Shown here one piece after another: positions 11,455 through 34,438 of a stretch of 36,191 nucleotides of DNA. The stretch's first letter is position 1. Every line of letters begins with the position of its first letter. The notes below the pieces were generated by a model. It saw only the letters and a program-made list of their open reading frames with translations. It was not told where the DNA came from and did no database searches. The translations under genes were made by a program, and so were the position numbers. The DNA is from an uncultured Lentisphaerota bacterium (GTDB lineage: Bacteria > Verrucomicrobiota > Kiritimatiellia > RFP12 > UBA1067), in NCBI GenBank assembly GCA_900321255.1, contig ONVK01000038.1, positions 1 through 36,191 on the forward strand, in the 5' to 3' direction.

Positions 11455-11597
11455 TGACGGAAGAAGCATGCCGTCGCCCGAAGGCTCCTCCTCAGGGACC
11501 CTCGGCGAATACGCCGTATCCCTTCGCTCGGACCTTCGCTGCGTCGGCATGCGAAATCGATGAATTACCGAAATTCCGAATTGCGCGGTTTTGCGCG
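11455..11597. other. intergenic stretch with nested inverted repeats
   Basis: No coding sequence recognised. GCATGCCG (11467-11474) pairs with CGGCATGC (11545-11552), and inside them CGGCG (11504-11508) pairs with CGCCG (11513-11517). The inner motif resembles the CGGCGTAT hairpin near the right end of the window, suggesting a shared repeat family. Confidence 0.5.
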
Positions 11598-11712
11598 TTT
11601 TGCTATTATACCGATGTTCCGACGGAGGCAGCCCCCGATTCGGAGCGATAGATTTCCCGCGCGGCGGTAGGGGCGTCTCTCCGAGACGCCCGCCCACCAC
11701 TGCGGTCGTGGG
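11598..11712 (+). repeat. 115-bp direct repeat, copy 1 (promoter plus GTCTC hairpin)
   Basis: 112 of 115 bases match copy 2 at 13388-13502. It starts with a promoter-like TGCTATTAT (11601-11609) and contains a perfect hairpin, arms GGGCGTCTC (11671-11679) and GAGACGCCC (11683-11691) around TCC. It would form the first part of the 5' leader of the AlbA_2-type gene. Confidence 0.9.
11601..11609 (+). promoter_or_regulatory. extended -10 promoter within repeat copy 1
   Basis: TGCTATTAT, with a weak -35-like TTGCGC at 11581-11586 and 17-bp spacing. It points at the AlbA_2-type gene and would give a leader of about 140 nt. Confidence 0.6.
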
Positions 11713-11754
11713 GAACATTGAGAAGTGAGTAAATTTCATATAAAGGGCTTGTAA

Positions 11755-13317
11755 TTGAACCTGAATGACTACATAGGCGAGGCGACGGCGTACGACAAGA
11801 AGCTGATGCTTGAGCGCAAGGACCCGACGAGTTGGCTCAAGAGCGTCAGCGCGTTCGCCAATACACAGGGTGGAAGGCTGCTCTTTGGCGTAGCGAACGA
11901 CGGCGTACTTGTCGGCCTTGCTGACGCGCAGGGAGACGCCGAGTTCATCAGCGAGGCAATCAAGGCGCAGATGGATCCCGTCCCGGAGATTGACCTCTCG
12001 ATCAACGAAGAGGATGGGAAGCGGTTCGTGGTCGTTGAGATAAAGGCTGGCTCGGAAACGCCGTACTACACGTTCGTGAAGGGCCACCGCGATGCCTTCA
12101 TCCGCATCGGCAACGAGAGTGTGAGGGCGGATGCCATTCAGCTGAAGCGTTTGGTATTAAATGGATCTCATCGTTCGTGGGACAGTCTGCCGTCCCAATA
12201 CAAACTGACGGATTTTTCATTTGAGGTGCTTCGGGCCACTTATTTCGAGAAAAGACACAAGTCTTTCCAAGATACGGATTTTGCATCGTTTGGTCTGGTT
12301 GGAGAAGGTGGCTGGCTTACGAATGCAGGCGCACTTCTGGCAGATCGTTCCCCAGTTCGTCATTCCCGTGTGTTCTGTACGCGTTGGAAGGGGCTGACTA
12401 AGGCTCATGGATTGATGGAAGCGTTGTCCGACCATGAGTATTCCGGCGGTCTTATCTCGCTTCTGCGTTCGGCAAAGGGATTTGTGGACGTGAACACGAG
12501 GATGATGTGGCGGAAGACGTCCAATGGTCGCGTGGAGTATCCAGAATATCCTGATGCAGCGGTGGAGGAGGGTATTGTCAATGGCCTTATCCATCGTGAT
12601 TATCTTGAGCTGGGAAGCGAAGTTCACATAGACATCTTTGACGACCGCATGGAAATCACATCGCCGGGCGGCATGCCGAGTGGAGAACGCGCACAAGAAC
12701 TTGATTTGCGCAAAGTGATTTCACTGCGGCGCAATCCGGTGATAGCCGACCTTTTTCAGCGACTGGAACTGATGGAACGCCGCGGTAGCGGATTCAAGAA
12801 GATACTTGACGCTTATGCGTTTGAATCGGAGAAGCGAGGCGAGTCTATTGTACCTCAACTGGAGTCAACAAATTCAGCATTCTTCCTGACACTTCCAAAC
12901 CTGAATTACGGGCGCATCATAAATGGTGTGGCGTCATCATCCATAAGCACGGAACGTGATACTGTCATCAAAACTGGCACTATCACCAAAAACATAGATG
13001 GCACTATCAGTAAAAACCATAGTCCTGGTGGGAATACAACAGCAAAAACATCATCTGAAGTCGGCGAAAATGGTGAGGTTGAGCAGAATGCCGGTAATGG
13101 CACTGACAGCAATCCTATCAGCAAAACTATCAGCAAAGAATCCTGGGAGATATTGAAGGTCATATCGGAATGCCGTCATATTTCTGCGGAGCAGATAGGT
13201 CGTATGCTGGGTCTTTCTGCATCAGGTGTCAGATATCATATCAGGGCATTGACGCGCAAATCCTTGATAAAACGAATCGGCAGTTCCAAGACCGGCCATT
13301 GGGAGGTCGTGAAGTAA
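11755..13317 (+). CDS. AlbA_2/Schlafen-type putative DNA-binding transcriptional regulator
   Basis: A 520-aa protein. Residues ~10-130 are an AlbA_2 (Schlafen-like) domain with ASAFANTQGG-type wording (SAFANTQGGRLLFGVANDG) and the closing FIRIGNESVRAD. Residues ~230-370 resemble the GHKL ATPase-like C-terminal domain of this family (GLIHRDYLELGSEVHIDIFDDRMEITSPGG, RRNPVIADLF, ERRGSGFKKI). A Ser/Thr/Asn-rich linker (~385-455) leads to a winged-helix domain (ISAEQIGRMLGLSASGVRYHIRALTRKSLI). The start is a TTG with AAAGGG eight bases upstream; no ATG fits. Composition changes inside the gene: GC by hand count is 39/60 at 11881-11940 but 23/60 at 12241-12300. Such proteins are often accessory, near defence or mobile genes. 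Confidence 0.85.
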   Translation: MNLNDYIGEATAYDKKLMLERKDPTSWLKSVSAFANTQGGRLLFGVANDGVLVGLADAQGDAEFISEAIKAQMDPVPEIDLSINEEDGKRFVVVEIKAGSETPYYTFVKGHRDAFIRIGNESVRADAIQLKRLVLNGSHRSWDSLPSQYKLTDFSFEVLRATYFEKRHKSFQDTDFASFGLVGEGGWLTNAGALLADRSPVRHSRVFCTRWKGLTKAHGLMEALSDHEYSGGLISLLRSAKGFVDVNTRMMWRKTSNGRVEYPEYPDAAVEEGIVNGLIHRDYLELGSEVHIDIFDDRMEITSPGGMPSGERAQELDLRKVISLRRNPVIADLFQRLELMERRGSGFKKILDAYAFESEKRGESIVPQLESTNSAFFLTLPNLNYGRIINGVASSSISTERDTVIKTGTITKNIDGTISKNHSPGGNTTAKTSSEVGENGEVEQNAGNGTDSNPISKTISKESWEILKVISECRHISAEQIGRMLGLSASGVRYHIRALTRKSLIKRIGSSKTGHWEVVK

Positions 13318-13328
13318 TTTTTCGGAGC

Positions 13329-13349
13329 GGCGAGACGTCCCGTCTCGTC
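13329..13349 (+). terminator. GAGACG hairpin downstream of the AlbA_2-type gene
   Basis: GGCGAGACG and CGTCTCGTC pair over nine positions (one G-T) around a TCC loop, just after the stop codon. No T-tract follows, so termination is doubtful; it resembles the hairpin of the 115-bp repeat in loop and arm wording. Confidence 0.5.
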
Positions 13350-13366
13350 GAGAATTTCAAAATCCC

Positions 13367-13391
13367 GCCCTTGCCGAATGCAAGGGCTTTT
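13367..13391 (+). terminator. intrinsic terminator overlapping the next promoter
   Basis: Perfect 8-bp stem GCCCTTGC / GCAAGGGC with a CGAAT loop followed by TTTT. The -35-like TTGCCG (13371-13376) of the next promoter lies within the stem. Confidence 0.8.
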
Positions 13392-13502
13392 GCTATTATA
13401 CCGATGTTCCGACGGGGGCAGCCCCCGATTCGGAGCGATAGATTTCCCGCGCGGCGGTAGGGGCGTCTCTCCGAGACGCCCGCCCACCACCGCGGTCATG
13501 GG
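13388..13502 (+). repeat. 115-bp direct repeat, copy 2
   Basis: Copy 2 of the element at 11598-11712, offset exactly 1790 bp, with three substitutions. It contains TGCTATTAT (13391-13399) and the GGGCGTCTC hairpin (13461-13481) and stands in front of the structured leader of the FRG operon. Confidence 0.9.
13391..13399 (+). promoter_or_regulatory. extended -10 promoter of the FRG operon within repeat copy 2
   Basis: TGCTATTAT with -35-like TTGCCG at 13371-13376 and 17-bp spacing. The predicted transcript starts near 13406, giving a leader of about 300 nt before the FRG gene. Confidence 0.6.
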
Positions 13503-13517
13503 ACGCGTCAGGAGAAA

Positions 13518-13613
13518 GTGTGAGAAGCTAACTCAAAAGAGACGCAACAAGAGGACACTGCCAGTCCGTGCAGTTTCGCCTCCTCCGTTGTATCTCTTTA
13601 GGTATTCTCACAC
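13518..13613 (+). ncRNA. candidate structured RNA: long imperfect hairpin upstream of the FRG gene
   Basis: Five nested paired blocks fold 96 nt into one arm: GTGTGAGAA (13518-13526) with TTCTCACAC (13605-13613); AAAGAGA (13536-13542) with TCTCTTT (13593-13599); GCAAC (13544-13548, shifted by one G-T pair) with GTTG and the next T (13587-13591); GAGGA (13551-13555) with TCCTC (13581-13585); ACTGC (13557-13561) with GCAGT (13570-13574) around an 8-nt loop. About 30 base pairs result, far beyond chance. No open frame covers it. It may be a separate small RNA, an attenuator, or an antitoxin-like RNA for the operon; this is inferred from structure alone. Confidence 0.6.
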
Positions 13614-13647
13614 ACCTCTCCTGATGCATCGGAGGAGGTGTTATTTT
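13612..13647 (+). terminator. terminator-like hairpin before the FRG gene
   Basis: 13612-13624 pairs with 13629-13641 at 12 of 13 positions (two G-T, one C-A mismatch) around TGCA, followed by TATTTT. It shares two bases with the outer arm of the preceding hairpin, so the two structures compete at their junction. Read-through would be needed for FRG expression from the upstream promoter. Confidence 0.65.
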
Positions 13648-13702
13648 CCCCGCGCCAAATCCGATTGCCACGAGGAGGGGAAGATAAGGGTGAGACAATC
13701 GG

Positions 13703-14653
13703 ATGCGGTGTAGGACAGTAGATGACATTGCGCGCGAGGCGCTACGGATCATAGACGAAGAGTCGTCTGTGCGTCCAGAGCCACGTGCAGAGTTCTTCTT
13801 TCGAGGTGAAAGCAAGAACCATAAATCCGATTATGATGACGAACCGCTTGGAACGGCGTTTCAGTCGCTGTTGGATAGAAGAGGGCTTGTCGAATATGAG
13901 CGTGAACTCTATCAGGAAGCAATGCGCCTAAATGTGGCATCATTCGAGGAAGACCGCACAATGGTGGAGCGCGTTGCGCGGATGCAGCACTACCTTCTTC
14001 CGACTCGTTTCTGCGATATGTCCACGAATGTTCTTCTCTCAACGCATTTCGCTTGTGGCGGAGGCGAGAAATGCGCGGAGAAACGTGACAACGGACGAGA
14101 TGGTTTCATTCGTGTAATGAAAGTAAAGGGGGACCGGATCAAATCGTTTACCAGTGATATAATAATTGCCATTTCACATCTACCACTTGTTACATCAGAG
14201 AACGTGAAGCCATCTCAAGAGAGAGGTTTGGGTTATCTTGCATACGAGGTAAAGAACAATCGCCCCGGGTTTCTAAGTGAGGATGATGACAAAGGTATCG
14301 GCAAGCAGTTGCGTGATGAAATCCAGCATGTCTGGGCGTTTAAGCCGATGATGAATTCGCGGCGCATCCGCAGGCAGGGCGGACTGTTCCTTGCGTTTGG
14401 CTGTGGCGACAACAAGAAATCGCTTGAGCCTACATTCTCGCCATTTGATTACGACAATCCATCTGCGCCGTCGTATGGCATCAAGCAGGTTGGCTATATT
14501 CGCATTGCGGCAGAAGCGAAGAAGAACATCCGCAAGCAACTTCGCTACTTTGGCATGGAAGCGGAATCCGTCTACCCTGAACTTTCCAATGTCTGCGAAG
14601 AACTCGACAACCGTTTCATGGAAATCAAATCAAAAGAGGAGGAGTCAAAATGA
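13703..14653 (+). CDS. FRG-domain protein
   Basis: A 316-aa protein whose N-terminal half has the FRG hallmarks: EFFFRGES at 30-37 and RMQHYLLPTRFCDMSTNVLLSTHFA at about 93-117 (family form 'QHYGLPTRLLDWT'). The C-terminal half has a VWAFKPMMNSRRIRRQGGLFLAFG segment, the usual second FRG block (R-x-x-x-Q-x-G-x-F). FRG proteins are common in phage-defence and mobile contexts and are thought to act as effectors, but their chemistry is unsettled. The ATG at 13703 is forced by an in-frame stop at 13691; AAGGG lies upstream. The stop overlaps the next start (ATGA at 14650). The gene is AT-richer than its surroundings, consistent with transfer. Confidence 0.85.
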   Translation: MRCRTVDDIAREALRIIDEESSVRPEPRAEFFFRGESKNHKSDYDDEPLGTAFQSLLDRRGLVEYERELYQEAMRLNVASFEEDRTMVERVARMQHYLLPTRFCDMSTNVLLSTHFACGGGEKCAEKRDNGRDGFIRVMKVKGDRIKSFTSDIIIAISHLPLVTSENVKPSQERGLGYLAYEVKNNRPGFLSEDDDKGIGKQLRDEIQHVWAFKPMMNSRRIRRQGGLFLAFGCGDNKKSLEPTFSPFDYDNPSAPSYGIKQVGYIRIAAEAKKNIRKQLRYFGMEAESVYPELSNVCEELDNRFMEIKSKEEESK

Positions 14654-14982
14654 GTGAGTATCATACAGAAGGATTCGTGAAGACTGTGTCCAAGGACGAG
14701 GAAGGTGTTTCATTCAAACTTGAGCCAGTTGCGCCTTATCTCTTTGAGGCGACGGAGAAAAAGGAAGATGGTTTGGCAAAGCGAAAAATATTGCTTGTGA
14801 CAGATGATGAGAGCAGCGCAAGAATATGCGCCGAAAGTGTTGAGTTCAAAATGCAGAGTGTTGATTTTGCATCTTTGCTCGTTATAAAGGCAAACCATAT
14901 GAAGGTGAAGCTGTTTGTTGAGTTAGAAGATGGGAAGTCGATTCCTAATCTATGTGAGATAAAAACAATTGAAATCAAGTGA
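14650..14982 (+). CDS. unknown 110-aa protein of the FRG operon
   Basis: Not recognised. A small soluble protein, acidic overall, with alternating strands (GVSFKLEPVAPYLFEA, RKILLVTDDESSARICAESVEF, DFASLLVIKANHMKVKLFVELED), which suggests an OB- or beta-barrel-like fold. There is no signal peptide or membrane helix. It has an excellent ribosome-binding site (GAGGAGG at 14635-14641) and overlaps the FRG stop codon by ATGA, so it is co-translated with the FRG protein. It could be an immunity partner, an adaptor, or a structural subunit. No homologue comes to mind. Confidence 0.7.
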   Translation: MSEYHTEGFVKTVSKDEEGVSFKLEPVAPYLFEATEKKEDGLAKRKILLVTDDESSARICAESVEFKMQSVDFASLLVIKANHMKVKLFVELEDGKSIPNLCEIKTIEIK

Positions 14983-15010
14983 TGTTTCGGCGCATAGGGA
15001 GATATTACTT

Positions 15011-15550
15011 ATGAACCTCAAAAGAATAAAGTATATTTATGTAGTCGCAGGAGAATCTAACTCTGGGAAGACAACAATTTTGCACTTGTTGTGTGAGTAT
15101 CTGCGCACGATAGCCATTGAGTTTGACGACTATTTGTTGAATGCTTCCGATCGATGTTGCAAGGCAAAATTAATTGATGGACGAGTGGTTGGCGTTGGAA
15201 CAGCAGGAGACACGGCTGAGTTTGTGATTGAGAACTTCTTGTATTTTAGCGAAGGGGACGGCTCGCTGATCCAAGAATCTGGTTGCGATATTGTGTTTGT
15301 AGCATTAACTAAAAACAACGGAAGGCATGGACGACGGTACAAGCCTAACAGTTCTTCGGCAGAGATTGCTTTATATGATGTGATATCTCCGACATTTATG
15401 CCAACGGTCGCGGTTCCGACGGATTTGGTGGCGACAAAGCGATACTCGAGACACTACTATAACTATCAGCAATGTCGTGACAATGACAACAAGTTGGTGC
15501 TTCAACGTCTCAAGGACCTTCTCGAAATCAAGGAAGCTACAAATGTATAA
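15011..15550 (+). CDS. small P-loop NTPase-like protein of the FRG operon
   Basis: A 179-aa protein with a clear Walker A motif GESNSGKTT at residues 14-22 directly after an initial hydrophobic strand (IKYIYVVA). A GVGTAGDTAEF segment may serve as a switch region, and CDIVFVALTKNNGRHG resembles a Walker B strand (hydrophobic strand, then polar). It resembles short, poorly described predicted ATPases. The ATG at 15011 is preferred because AGGGAG lies about nine bases upstream; a TTG at 14969 in the same frame would overlap the preceding gene. Third gene of the FRG operon; gap of 28 bp after the 110-aa gene. Function unknown. Confidence 0.72.
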   Translation: MNLKRIKYIYVVAGESNSGKTTILHLLCEYLRTIAIEFDDYLLNASDRCCKAKLIDGRVVGVGTAGDTAEFVIENFLYFSEGDGSLIQESGCDIVFVALTKNNGRHGRRYKPNSSSAEIALYDVISPTFMPTVAVPTDLVATKRYSRHYYNYQQCRDNDNKLVLQRLKDLLEIKEATNV

Positions 15551-15593
15551 GAAAGTTATACCATATGTCATGGTGCGTCGCGGCTTGAATGCT

Positions 15594-17372
15594 ATGAAAA
15601 AGATATGCTGTATTGCTGCACTAATGCTTGTGACAAGCGCGATGGCAGATTATGTGGACGCAAACAACGAAACGTATCAATCGATAGATTACATAGTGGC
15701 GACGGGCGGCCAATGGATAGTTACTGACATAAGGCCAACATGCACAGATACCGTCAAGATGAAGTTTCGCCTTTCTTCTACAGCGAAGACGCAGGCCCTT
15801 TACTGTTCTCGTACAACGATGACGACAAACACGTTTACCGCATTTTTCATTGATGGTGTGGTGCGGTGTGATCGCAATACGAATACATCTACAAAAGGGA
15901 ACACTCGTCCAAGCATTAATGGCGATACTACTTTCGTGGCAGACTATGCGACGCGTAGGTTTTCGGTCAACGGCATTGACCAAGATGTAATGATGGCAGA
16001 AGGCGGCTATATGCCAGGCAGTGATTTAATGTTGTTTGCGAGCCATAAAAAAGGGAACGATCTTTCGCCAGATATCGATGCTCAGGATGTTGACAACAGA
16101 GCAACATACAGGCTGTACTATTTTGAGCTCTACTCAGCTGGTTGTGAAGAACCTAAACATCGCCTGATGCCTGTGCGACGTAAATCTGACTTGGTTGTTG
16201 GACTATATGATAGTGTGGTTGGTAAGTTTTATGGGCCTGCCGACAATTCAGGTGCATTCATCGCAGGTTCAGCGATTAAGAATGTGACCGCGAAGCAGCG
16301 GTATCCGTGGAATGGGAAGGTGGATATCTCATACACGATAGTGGGTGATGTTGCAGCGGAAGTGACGCAAAATGGTGAAGTAGCAGTGCTGAAGGTGGCG
16401 GCGATCGACAAGACTGCGAATGCGACCAACATGGCGACAAAGTTATCTGGTGATGTGAGTATAACGGAGGGAACGCATTCTCTTGTCTGGGACATGGGGG
16501 CAGATGGACTATCCTTCAGGTCATCAAATGTTGTGTTCAAGGTCTACTGCGAAACTGAGTTGTTGAATCCAACGTATTGCGTAATTGACCTTTCGGCTGG
16601 ATCGAACGCGACATCCTACCCCGTTACATATCTTGCGGAACCGCCAAGCGGCGGATTCAATGTAAGTGAATACAAGACATCAAAACTTGTCTTGAAGCGC
16701 ATTGAGGCAGGCTCGTTCAAGATGGGAGGATCGTACGACGTCACACTTACGAAGCCGTTCTACTGCGGCCTGTTTGAGGTGACGCAGCGGCAATGGGAAC
16801 TTGTTATGGGGAGTAATCCTTGCTCGTCAACATCATACGGAAAGGGAAATAGTTATCCTGTGCATTATGTTGCGTACACCATGATAAGAGGCAGTTCGGC
16901 GGGATCTGAATGGCCCGCGCCTTCCGCAGTGGATTCGTGGTCGTTCTTGGGAAAGCTTCGCGTTCGAACTGGACTTGATTTCGATCTTCCGACTGAGGCG
17001 CAGTGGGAATATACCTGCCGTGCGGGAACGACCACCACCTATAGCTACGGCAATTCGGCCAACGGAAGTTATATGTGGTATTCAAGCAATTCCAGTTCAA
17101 AGTCGCATGAAGTCGGTACAAAGTCGCCAAATCCGTGGGGGCTCTATGATATGCACGGAAATGTGTGGGAGTGGTGCTTGGATTGGTACGCAAGTAGTCT
17201 GACAGGCGGCACAGATCCTAAGGGTTCTTCCTCGGGGTCGTACCGGGTGGCGCGCGGCGGCAGCTGGTTCTACGATGCGTCCTACTGCACCTCGTCCTAC
17301 CGGAACCACTACTACCCGTCGAACGTATACAACCTCCTCGGCTTCCGCCTTGTCAGAACCCTGTCTGAATAA
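15594..17372 (+). CDS. secreted lectin-like/FGE-sulfatase-domain protein, candidate DGR target
   Basis: A 592-aa exported protein. The signal peptide is MKKICCIAALMLVTSAMA. Residues ~20-225 are a concanavalin/LamG-like sandwich (YQSIDYIVATGGQWIVTD ... GLYDSVVGKFYG). Then comes a beta-sandwich linker (~230-345), and residues ~360-590 are an FGE-sulfatase (SUMF1-type) domain, with the family's WELVMGSNP, DLPTEAQWEYTCRAGT, GLYDMHGNVWEW and RVARGGSW...GFRLVR. The catalytic cysteines of true FGE are not apparent, so it is a ligand-binding version of the fold. The final segment (17241-17360) has the composition and codon style of a DGR variable region. The start at 15594 is chosen because the signal peptide begins there; its ribosome-binding site is weak. 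Confidence 0.85.
   Translation: MKKICCIAALMLVTSAMADYVDANNETYQSIDYIVATGGQWIVTDIRPTCTDTVKMKFRLSSTAKTQALYCSRTTMTTNTFTAFFIDGVVRCDRNTNTSTKGNTRPSINGDTTFVADYATRRFSVNGIDQDVMMAEGGYMPGSDLMLFASHKKGNDLSPDIDAQDVDNRATYRLYYFELYSAGCEEPKHRLMPVRRKSDLVVGLYDSVVGKFYGPADNSGAFIAGSAIKNVTAKQRYPWNGKVDISYTIVGDVAAEVTQNGEVAVLKVAAIDKTANATNMATKLSGDVSITEGTHSLVWDMGADGLSFRSSNVVFKVYCETELLNPTYCVIDLSAGSNATSYPVTYLAEPPSGGFNVSEYKTSKLVLKRIEAGSFKMGGSYDVTLTKPFYCGLFEVTQRQWELVMGSNPCSSTSYGKGNSYPVHYVAYTMIRGSSAGSEWPAPSAVDSWSFLGKLRVRTGLDFDLPTEAQWEYTCRAGTTTTYSYGNSANGSYMWYSSNSSSKSHEVGTKSPNPWGLYDMHGNVWEWCLDWYASSLTGGTDPKGSSSGSYRVARGGSWFYDASYCTSSYRNHYYPSNVYNLLGFRLVRTLSE
17241..17360 (+). other. candidate DGR variable region
   Basis: Between TGG (17265) and GGC (17340), 17 of 24 codons are of the NNC type (TAC six times, AAC three, TCC and CTC twice each, plus TTC, CAC, ACC, TGC), the pattern produced when AAC codons of a template are mutated at their adenines. 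GC by hand count jumps from 25/60 (17041-17100) to 41/60 (17221-17280). It lies at the C-terminal end of an FGE-fold domain, the usual place. No reverse transcriptase or template repeat was found in the window. Confidence 0.6.
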
Positions 17373-17449
17373 AGAGCAGGTGCACACCGGCGAGCTGAGG
17401 GCCAAAGTCTTTTCCGCGCCTGGGTTCATTTTATGGGAGAGAAATCAAA

Positions 17450-19465
17450 ATGAAGAATTACAGTTTGATAGTAATGACAATTGCCGCTATGTCGCAAGTG
17501 GCTATCGGTGGCGTCATTTGCTCGGGTGAGAGCGATGAGGTGGACATAGACTTGTTGCCTGGAGTGCGGACTGCTGCGCAGACGGAGCGGATTTGCTATT
17601 CAACTGAGTGGGTGGATGGCGCTGGCTTGGATGCGACGGCAGAGATCGCAGTCAATGGTGAGATTCTGAGTTCTGCGACAGGAAGTGGCTACATCAATTG
17701 GACTCCGCTGCAAAAGGGCACTTACACGCTGACGCACAAGGTCATGTTGGGCGAAGGGCAAGTGGGAGAGACGCTTACGGCGACATTTGTCGTGAATGGA
17801 CCATCTACGCCTGTGTTTACTCCTGCGAGTGGGACGGTATTTGACGGGATGCAGTCCGTGACGATTGAGTGCGAGGACGAAGATGCTGCAATTTACTATA
17901 CGCTTGACGGCAGCGAACTAACGGCTGAGTCGACGCCATACAGACGCTTTAGGATAACGGGCAAGACAACTGTCAAGGCGGCTGCAGTGAAGAATGGTAT
18001 CTGGAGTGAGATTGCAGTCGCTCATTATGCTCTTGGGAATTGTGTGGAACCGGTGATAGCGCCAGCAGGTGGAAGCAGGTTTTCGCATTCCAATCAAACT
18101 GTGTCAATTGCGTGGAATGAATCGGATGGTGTTCTTCGCTATACGCTTGATGGGAGCGATCCGACAGAGGAGAGCGCGGAATATACAGGTGAGTTCACAA
18201 TCAGCAATACTACGACAGTGAAGGCGAAGGTGTTTAGCGACAAGTATTTTGACTCAGATGTAGTGTCTGCGACGCTTGTTCGCGAATGGCTGCAGGTGGC
18301 GACGCCGGTGATATCGGCGGCGGCTGAGTTTACGGGGGAGAAGTCACGAGTGACGGTTTCGTGTGCAACTGACGGCGCGACGATTCGCTACACGATTGAC
18401 GGTAGCGAGCCGAGCACGGATTCTGAGATGTATGAAGGAGTGTTTTATGTCACGAACTCCTGCACGATAAAGGCGATTGCGATGATGGACGATTTTCTTG
18501 ATTCTGCGGTCGCGAGCGCGTCGGTGACGAAGGTGTTGGGCGCAGGCGATTATTTGGGAGCGCCTTCGGCGTCATTTGCCAACGGCGGAAATGCCAACTG
18601 GGTGCGCGACACAGAAGTTGGCGTGAATGGCGGCGAGTCGATGCGCTCTGGGGCGATTGGGGCCAATCAGACTTCCGTCCTGACAGCGACGGTGAAGGGC
18701 AAGGGAACGTTCAGCTTCTGGTGGAAGGCGTCGTGCGAGGATTCCGGCGGATACTATGACTGGGATCACGCGGAGTTCCAGGTGGACGGCGAGACGCACT
18801 ACATCGACGGAGAGACGGAGTGGCTGCAGATTACACACGAGTTCACGACGTCGGGTGAACACGAGTTGCGCTGGACCTACATAAAAGACGATGCGGGGAA
18901 GGAAGGTCGCGATTGTGTTTGGATTGCCGCGGCTCAATGGGAAAGAGACCCGATACCGGAGGTGGGGGAAAGCCCGACGTCCGAGGAAATCGAGGACGCG
19001 CTTTACGGCTCGCGGGACATGCGCCTCATGCGCCGCATTGTCGATGCGAGCGGATATGCGGCATATCACAATTGGGCGGACAGCGTACGTGGGCAAGATT
19101 TCGCAAGCCGCCAGGTGCTGAAGGATTCGCCGAACGCATGGGTGGCGTTCACACTTGACGCGGCGTCACTTGTGGAGAAGTCGGAGTTGACGGACGATGA
19201 TGTGGTAATTGAATCTATTGAGCCGTCGGGCGTCGAGGCGGATGCGTTTGATCTTGTCGTCGGCGTCGGGGGTGCGGAGATTGGCGAAGGTGCGCGGCTT
19301 GCGGAGGCGTTGTGCGTAGAGGGTGCCGACGAGCTGGACGAAGCGGCGTTCTCTTCCGAAAACCTGACTACCACTTTCCAGCGAACCACGGACGGCAAGG
19401 CAAAGGCGATGATTGTGCCGATTGGGGCGCCGCCAAAGTTTTTCCTGAGAGTGAAGGTGAAATAG
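17450..19465 (+). CDS. secreted protein with three chitobiase-C-type repeats
   Basis: A 671-aa exported protein (signal peptide about residues 1-20). After an N-terminal beta domain it has three CHB_HEX_C-type repeats, each with a YTxDGSxx-type core: YYTLDGSELTAESTPY, RYTLDGSDPTEESAEY and RYTIDGSEPSTDSEMY (about residues 120-370). Next is a jelly-roll-like domain (GKGTFSFWWKASCEDSG ... HELRWTYIKDD) and a C-terminal domain ending GAPPKFFLRVKVK, a closing often seen in PVC surface proteins. It has a GGGAGAG ribosome-binding site. Likely a surface or glycan-binding protein; the FGE-fold neighbour upstream may act with it. Composition is lower in GC than the core genes. Confidence 0.75.
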   Translation: MKNYSLIVMTIAAMSQVAIGGVICSGESDEVDIDLLPGVRTAAQTERICYSTEWVDGAGLDATAEIAVNGEILSSATGSGYINWTPLQKGTYTLTHKVMLGEGQVGETLTATFVVNGPSTPVFTPASGTVFDGMQSVTIECEDEDAAIYYTLDGSELTAESTPYRRFRITGKTTVKAAAVKNGIWSEIAVAHYALGNCVEPVIAPAGGSRFSHSNQTVSIAWNESDGVLRYTLDGSDPTEESAEYTGEFTISNTTTVKAKVFSDKYFDSDVVSATLVREWLQVATPVISAAAEFTGEKSRVTVSCATDGATIRYTIDGSEPSTDSEMYEGVFYVTNSCTIKAIAMMDDFLDSAVASASVTKVLGAGDYLGAPSASFANGGNANWVRDTEVGVNGGESMRSGAIGANQTSVLTATVKGKGTFSFWWKASCEDSGGYYDWDHAEFQVDGETHYIDGETEWLQITHEFTTSGEHELRWTYIKDDAGKEGRDCVWIAAAQWERDPIPEVGESPTSEEIEDALYGSRDMRLMRRIVDASGYAAYHNWADSVRGQDFASRQVLKDSPNAWVAFTLDAASLVEKSELTDDDVVIESIEPSGVEADAFDLVVGVGGAEIGEGARLAEALCVEGADELDEAAFSSENLTTTFQRTTDGKAKAMIVPIGAPPKFFLRVKVK

Positions 19466-19598
19466 GGTTGGGCGAGCATGTCGGGCCAAGGCCCCGATTT
19501 CGCAGATGTCAGCAGTGGGTTCAACTGTTTGCAATCGCGTCCGCCAAGCTCAATTGCCATGAATTACCGTTTACCGTTTGTCTGATGTGCGCACATTT

Positions 19599-33067: not shown

Positions 33068-34438
33068 ATGTCAGCCATACTCGACAAGATACTGTCCGAC
33101 CGCGAGAAGTTTGTCTGCACCGTCAAGACGCTTGGGCCTTGCAAGCTGCCGTCGCCTGTCCGCCACCGCAAGTACGTCGCCGACGGGGAGCGCGTCTTCG
33201 CCACCGAAAGCGAGTCGCATGCGCGCTTCGCCGAGACGAAGCTCGGGCACTTGCCGACGTTCGAGAAGGCGGGGCCGAAGGAGAAGATATTCCACGATCC
33301 GAGCTGGACGCGCGTCGGCATCGTGACGGCGGGCGGCCTATGCCCGGGGCTCAACACCGTCATAAAGAGTCTCGTAGAAATCCTCGAGTTCGACTATGGC
33401 GTCAAGAAGGTGTACGGCATACGCTACGGCTACGCGGGTCTAAACCCGAAGTACGGCTACGAGCCGATGCTCCTCAACCCCGATGCCGTTGACACGATCC
33501 ACGAGGCGGGAGGCACGGTCCTCGGCTCGAGCCGTGGCCAGCAGCCGGCCGACGTGATGGTCGACACGCTCGAGAGGATGAACATCAACGTCCTCTTCTG
33601 CATAGGCGGCGACGGTTCCTTGCGCTGCGCGAGCGACATCGCGGCCGAGGTGCTGAAGCGCGGACTCAAGATTTCCGTCGTCGGCATCCCGAAGACGATT
33701 GACAACGACCTGATGTTCGTAGGGCGCAGCTTCGGCTTCGAGAGCGCCGTCGCCGAAGCCGCGGAGGTCATCAGGAGCGCACACGTCGAGGCGAAGGGAA
33801 CGCCCCACGGCATCGGCCTCGTGAAGCTCATGGGGCGCGACTCCGGCTTCATCGCGGCGTCCGCGACGGTGGCGAACCCTGTCGTCAACTTCTGCCTTGT
33901 TCCGGAGGTCAAGTTCGAGCTCGACGGGGAGCGCGGGCTCTTAAGGGCGCTCGAGCGCCGCTTCGCCGCCGGCAAGTCGCACGCAGTCATCGTCGTGGCC
34001 GAGGGTGCGGGGCAGGAGCTCCTTGAAGGCGTCGAGGAGCGCGACGCCAGCGGCAACATACTCAAGAAGGACATCGGAGAGTTCCTGAAGCGCCGCATCT
34101 CCGCACACTTCAAGGAGAAGGGCTTCGAGTCGAGCGTAAAGTACATCGACCCGAGCTACATAATCCGCAGCTGCCCTGCGCGTGGCACCGACGCGATACG
34201 CTGCTACGAGCTCGCTCGTGCGGCAGTCCACGCGGCGATGGCGGGGCGCACCGACTGCGTCGTGGGCAATATCGGCGAGAGCTTCGCGCTCGTGCCGATC
34301 GCGCTCGCCACGATCGAGCGCCAGAAGCTCGATACCGACGGCCAGTCCTGGCGCAGCGTCCTCGACGCGACGGGCCAGGAGTTCTACTTCAACGGCGTTT
34401 CGCGCAACCTCTTCGCTGGCGACGCGTTTGCCCCGTAA
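33068..34438 (+). CDS. 6-phosphofructokinase, GGDG/PKTIDND type
   Basis: Phosphorylates fructose 6-phosphate in glycolysis. The 456-aa length fits the long clade (plant-like and 'group X') rather than the 320-aa E. coli type. The phosphate-donor site shows GGDGS at 180-184, with Gly in the position that is Asp in PPi-dependent enzymes, and PKTIDND at 208-214, with Lys in the position that is Gly in E. coli. The G/K combination is that of ATP-dependent members of this clade, so ATP is the predicted donor. GLVKLMGRDSGFIA and the C-terminal ARGTDAIRCYELARAAV motif complete the family match. Starts three bases after the decarboxylase stop. Confidence 0.9.
   Translation: MSAILDKILSDREKFVCTVKTLGPCKLPSPVRHRKYVADGERVFATESESHARFAETKLGHLPTFEKAGPKEKIFHDPSWTRVGIVTAGGLCPGLNTVIKSLVEILEFDYGVKKVYGIRYGYAGLNPKYGYEPMLLNPDAVDTIHEAGGTVLGSSRGQQPADVMVDTLERMNINVLFCIGGDGSLRCASDIAAEVLKRGLKISVVGIPKTIDNDLMFVGRSFGFESAVAEAAEVIRSAHVEAKGTPHGIGLVKLMGRDSGFIAASATVANPVVNFCLVPEVKFELDGERGLLRALERRFAAGKSHAVIVVAEGAGQELLEGVEERDASGNILKKDIGEFLKRRISAHFKEKGFESSVKYIDPSYIIRSCPARGTDAIRCYELARAAVHAAMAGRTDCVVGNIGESFALVPIALATIERQKLDTDGQSWRSVLDATGQEFYFNGVSRNLFAGDAFAP

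Follow-up and report, generated by a model that had tools for sequence, protein, structure and literature searches.

A C-terminal DGR-type variable region in a secreted FGE-fold protein of Kiritimatiellae, probably an orphaned target

HRDC-type diversity-generating retroelements (DGRs) with FGE targets have been described in Treponema denticola, where remote targets also occur, as do orphan targets in genomes devoid of a reverse transcriptase (RT) or template repeat (TR) (PMC4891356). The orphan targets of such isolates were read as the leftovers of lost cores (PMC4891356). The locus described here, located in a 36,191-nt stretch of Kiritimatiellae DNA (the window), is best read as a further case of an orphaned FGE target of an HRDC-type DGR. 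It resembles the T. denticola TvpA element in its FGE-fold target with a C-terminal variable region (VR), in its IMH/IMH*-like ends and in the presence of HRDC and RT genes in related cassettes. It differs from TvpA in that the target comes from a different phylum (Kiritimatiellae), carries other N-terminal domains and neighbours a CSGES-type gene within a hotspot, and in that some of its relatives have a truncated HRDC gene at the site of the missing core. The BPP-1 DGR (Mtd; PMC3240598) has in common with the window the adenine-directed VR/TR logic, an IMH-like end and the C-type lectin fold, as well as a GRNA-loop hairpin that is found in the relatives of the window. Unlike the phage tail fibre of BPP-1, the window target is a bacterial secreted protein; the relatives carry HRDC instead of Avd, and RT, TR and hairpin are all lacking in the window. 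The TR known to be closest to the window VR comes from the DGR of Kiritimatiellae bacterium RGIG3692 (goat rumen; contig JAFTCL010000007.1, G105:C31), which shows the same gene order of target and CSGES-type gene and which, unlike the window, is complete with HRDC, RT and TR. Among the papers searched, none joined "diversity-generating retroelement" with "Kiritimatiell"; the window target adds a VR to the DGR biology of rumen Kiritimatiellae.

The features of the locus are listed in Table 1. The AlphaFold model of the C-terminal part of the target (16677-17369) had a pLDDT of 90, and its nearest solved structure was the DGR target TvpA (2Y3C; Z 30, rmsd 1.5, 209 residues, 41% identity), which was also the best sequence match of the FGE domain. 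Mtd of BPP-1 was matched with Z of about 13. Judging from this fold, the protein would most likely bind ligands through a fixed face, either displayed on the cell surface or secreted.

Table 1. Coordinates of the target gene, its parts and its surroundings in the window
Feature	Position	Strand	Description
AT-richer variable hotspot holding the target	11550..19570	.	GC of genes; in close relatives, without content or with other genes
DGR target gene	15594..17372	+	ORF; secreted-type product ending in an FGE-sulfatase domain
N-terminal domain of target			No Pfam match to 15594-16676; signal-peptide-like N-terminus, MKKICCIAALMLVTSAMA
Middle domain of target			VTAKQRYPWNG...
C-terminal domain of target			FGE-sulfatase/C-type-lectin fold; Pfam PF03781, E 5.5e-33
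FGE-sulfatase domain	16701..17357	+	Genome-wide PF03781 search, E 2.5e-32
Variable region (VR)	17223..17369	+	TR homologue (DGR of G105:C31), 81%, E 8.8e-34
Adenine-derived variable span	17241..17338	+	First to last TR-adenine mismatch
IMH-like VR 3' end	17349..17365	+	CTTGTCAGAACCCTGTC; TR counterpart, IMH*-like: CTTGTCAGCACCGTGTC
TCAGA/TCTGA inverted repeat	17353..17368	+	5-bp; arms 17353-17357 and 17364-17368; just before the stop codon
Stop codon of target	17370-17372
Intergenic stretch	17373..17449	+	Place of HRDC-RT-TR in G105; lacks the GRNA-loop hairpin of relatives
Partner gene	17450..19465	+	CSGES/Fn3_assoc/CHB_HEX_C-type secreted protein; Pfam, tblastn synteny

In RGIG3692 the RT reading frame contains the TR at its 3' end; the TR reads RGGSWNNNADNCNSSNRNNNNPSNENNNDGFR. 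When the window VR was compared with this TR, which derives from a related genome and not from the window's own, mismatches were found at 20 of 37 TR adenines and at five of 77 other bases, i.e., 72 of the 77 non-adenine positions and 17 of the 37 adenine positions matched. The 3' ends of the two sequences, CTTGTCAGAACCCTGTC versus CTTGTCAGCACCGTGTC, showed the IMH/IMH* type of difference, and the window end was of the VR type. The initial annotation had placed a DGR variable region at the end of a secreted FGE-fold protein and had derived it from a GC-rich template. Both claims are supported by the analysis. The DNA of positions 17221-17400 had matches in 36 of 115 genomes of the same family, often several per genome, most of them stopping near query position 145-152 and several flanking RT genes. 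Complete DGR cassettes in the family contained TRs homologous to the window segment, and in linked cassettes the VR and TR differed almost exclusively where the TR has adenine; elsewhere they differed at 0-1 positions.

The adenine contrast alone is insufficient, since in control FGE tails, too, asparagine codons fall on positions that vary naturally. Several of these controls, picked as presumed non-DGR tails without a check for an RT tail by tail, also gave low Fisher p values, and the adenine/non-adenine test was dropped as sole evidence. The measure that discriminated was the fixed part of the VR, namely its non-adenine third positions. Across 21 relatives, the identity at these positions was 0.68-0.97 (median 0.89) within the VR and that of third positions upstream in the gene was 0.35-0.64, while the amino acid identity at adenine codons was 0.10-0.45, versus 0.54-0.87 upstream. 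For a housekeeping gene of the window (33068-34438), third-position identity was 0.42-0.61 in ten relatives and reached 0.81 in G060, the closest of those compared. Near uniformity at silent sites combined with scrambled adenine codons is predicted by copying from a conserved template. The origin of 17223-17369 as a DGR VR that forms the C-terminal end of a TvpA-like, secreted FGE-fold protein is well supported.

The composition of the gene end, to which the initial annotation had drawn attention, was reproduced on recounting. Between the RGGSW and GFRL motifs, 17 of 24 codons were of the NNC type (upstream rate in the target gene 0.204, binomial p 1.5e-7); farther upstream in the gene, any 24 successive codons included at most 10. 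The GC content rose from 0.489 in the upstream part of the gene to 0.629 at 17232-17363; by 60-nt pieces, G+C was 34/60 at 17181-17240 and 40/60 at 17241-17300, one fewer than the 41 of the earlier hand count. Host-like genes in the 61% GC window reach 14-19 NNC codons in 24, so that the NNC run is unusual for the AT-richer target gene but not for the genome, and composition by itself marks the segment as unlike the rest of the gene without demonstrating a DGR. These host-like codon counts, together with the similar conserved and variable columns and low Fisher p values of the control tails, would suit an origin that involves no DGR at all, either as a conserved FGE tail with host-like codon usage, GC-rich and C-ending, or through gene conversion by a GC-rich paralogue. 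Such an origin is exceedingly improbable given the linked RT-TR cassettes with homologous TRs, the VR-type IMH-like end, the restriction of near-uniform third positions to the VR, the scrambled adenine codons, and the occurrence in several genera of orphans closest to one TR; the TR comparison already contradicts it.

By comparison with related genomes, the locus looks like a cassette whose HRDC-RT-TR core was lost or was never present. In RGIG3692 the cassette runs from the FGE target through HRDC and RT with the TR to the CSGES-type gene, and the window shows the same order minus HRDC-RT-TR, with 77 bp between target and CSGES-type gene. Homologues of the partner gene follow the TR in RGIG3692 and the orphan targets in relatives. 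In four relatives (G055, G026, G024, G012) a truncated HRDC gene occupies this place: in G055, of the same genus as the window, the target is followed by a shortened HRDC joined to the 3' end of a TR, IMH*-like terminus included, and then by the CSGES-type gene, and in the other three the HRDC genes are cut at different points. In several further relatives the target is directly followed by the CSGES-type gene. The window itself contains no HRDC remnant, and a deletion of the core there can accordingly be deduced only from these neighbours.

Downstream of the VR, relatives that share the VR type have GC-rich GRNA-loop hairpins, and in some of these the stem measures 4-6 bp. In the window, no GRNA-loop stem was detected in the 80 nt scanned downstream of the VR. 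The downstream hairpin of BPP-1 is needed for efficient homing (PMC3240598). The lack of such a hairpin in the window speaks against the site still being a competent target, although a structure that is weaker or of another kind may be present. As for the short TCAGA/TCTGA hairpin that had been noted before the stop codon, the 5-bp repeat is present (DNA fold −2.2 kcal/mol, with 4 of 200 shuffled sequences folding as well), but relatives do not conserve its 3' arm. Considering the different, downstream position of the GRNA-loop hairpins in relatives, the repeat is probably incidental and was rejected as a DGR hairpin.

The assembly of the window genome (2.78 Mb, 88% complete) was searched for the components of the mutator. 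The RVT_1 profile gave no match at E<=10, the RT protein of RGIG3692 found VR tails only, and the HRDC protein query gave nothing credible (best E 0.03, with stops inside). Queries with the TR and post-TR sequence matched only the window VR and a weak FGE tail on contig C96. Hence RT, TR, post-TR sequence and HRDC accessory were all lacking in this 88%-complete assembly. Neither an RT nor a near-copy of the VR was found within the window, as had been noted before, or in the rest of the assembly, where a near-copy beside a DGR-type RT had been expected; the earlier claim that another part of this genome held the template for the VR was not supported. No full-length DGR-type RT match was obtained in seven close relatives (G045, G060, G085, G090, G092, G095, G055). 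At E<=1e-5, the RT query of RGIG3692 had no match in the window genome, G055 and G090, and only partial matches of 28-35% identity in G045, G060, G085, G092 and G095. Six RVT_1 matches from the latter five genomes were rejected as DGR RTs, as they carry the group II motif GTPQGG; the G045 protein, the only one scanned with NCBIfam, was above the group II maturase cut-off. The FGE tail on C96 is internal to a 1255-aa protein of the window genome (L087:291-4058) and has the motif CTSSFR....PS without an IMH-like end. It may be a second, decayed VR, but its non-adenine mismatch (9/64 or 14/80 in two comparisons) was within the control range.

With neither RT nor template at the locus, in the assembly or in the closest relatives, the gene looks like a target left by its mutator. 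We consider it likely that the segment is a genuine DGR VR in a now orphaned target, probably no longer diversifying, within a variable hotspot. Going by what is known of the family, past mutagenic retrohoming would have overwritten the gene end with a copy of a GC-rich TR in which the adenine positions were randomised. The HRDC-RT-TR core may then have been deleted in this lineage, or the target may equally well have been acquired without it; both routes lead to the orphan state and are compatible with the data. Since the locus is now an orphan, the VR was probably diversified in the past and is now frozen, with no mutation still going on at the site. The case would illustrate the survival of a diversified target after the loss of its DGR core.

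The incompleteness of the assembly bears on whether the VR is still being rewritten, because a contig with RT and TR could be missing from it. A cognate RT/TR in the missing 12%, or on a plasmid, phage or island that escaped binning, would then serve the target in trans. The non-adenine positions of the window VR are 94% identical to the TR of another genus, as close as the remote VRs of RGIG3692 are to their TR (4/80 and 8/80 non-adenine mismatches), and in that genome one TR type is common to three VRs on separate contigs; remote DGR targets are also known elsewhere (PMC4891356, PMC8144416). The five non-adenine mismatches of the window VR are as compatible with rewriting in trans, whether recent or still under way, as with a recent loss. 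We nevertheless regard present activity in trans as unlikely, in view of the searches of the assembly and of the seven relatives and the missing GRNA-loop hairpin. Moreover, viral contigs gave neither a match in the VR motif scan nor a relative in the RT search, and the plasmid search found distant RTs only (<=40.5%).

The same question arises for orphan VRs of this type in several genera, which differ from a single TR at 3-8 of 80 non-adenine positions, with the RT found in one genome only. Repeated recent losses, target exchange or a trans-acting mobile DGR could each account for them. One mutator shared among genera of rumen Kiritimatiellae, mobile and rewriting scattered targets that lack RT and TR, would explain why these VRs stay so close to one TR type; we judge this quite improbable, more so than activity in trans on the window target as such. 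The truncated HRDC genes and the near-uniform non-adenine sites of orphan VRs make it testable whether DGR targets in general persist as fixed binders once their mutator is gone or are still served in trans. Two VRs from two species of one genus (L079, G105 C18; L085, G104 C16) had nearly the same variable residues, as expected of a frozen VR.

The target lies in a hotspot that varies among relatives. In G085, G092 and G095 the hotspot is empty and its flanks are directly joined; in G045, whose right flank is 98.7% identical, a 2461-aa gene with BspA-like repeats replaces the FRG gene, the target and the CSGES-type gene. Compared with the syntenic gene of G060 (L261:7360-9159), the target was 93-100% identical over 15594-16193, 63-70% over 16294-16593 and approximately 79% in the FGE domain. 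This drop after the N-terminal part suggests that the FGE and VR module may have been exchanged by recombination. It could have been imported recently behind a resident N-terminal domain, having been diversified in a donor lineage. The FGE domain also shares 87% of its amino acids with that of G046, whose Pfk is only 71% identical, and the target gene is AT-richer than the host. Against this, no donor of higher identity was found, and the G046 domain is only 83% identical in nucleotides. We hold the import to be a real possibility, somewhat short of an even chance; it does not compete with the preferred reading, as it would be one way of reaching the same orphan state.

The left bound of the hotspot was placed at about 8950/11550 and the right one at about 19570. 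Upstream of the target lies a gene for an FRG-domain protein (13703-14653), with a syntenic G060 copy of about 87% DNA identity. Farther upstream, a 115-nt direct repeat (97%; 11598-11712 and 13388-13502) flanks an AlbA_2/HATPase_c_4 gene (11755-13317); G060 has the 115-nt repeats without this gene, and in G045 the gene is present.
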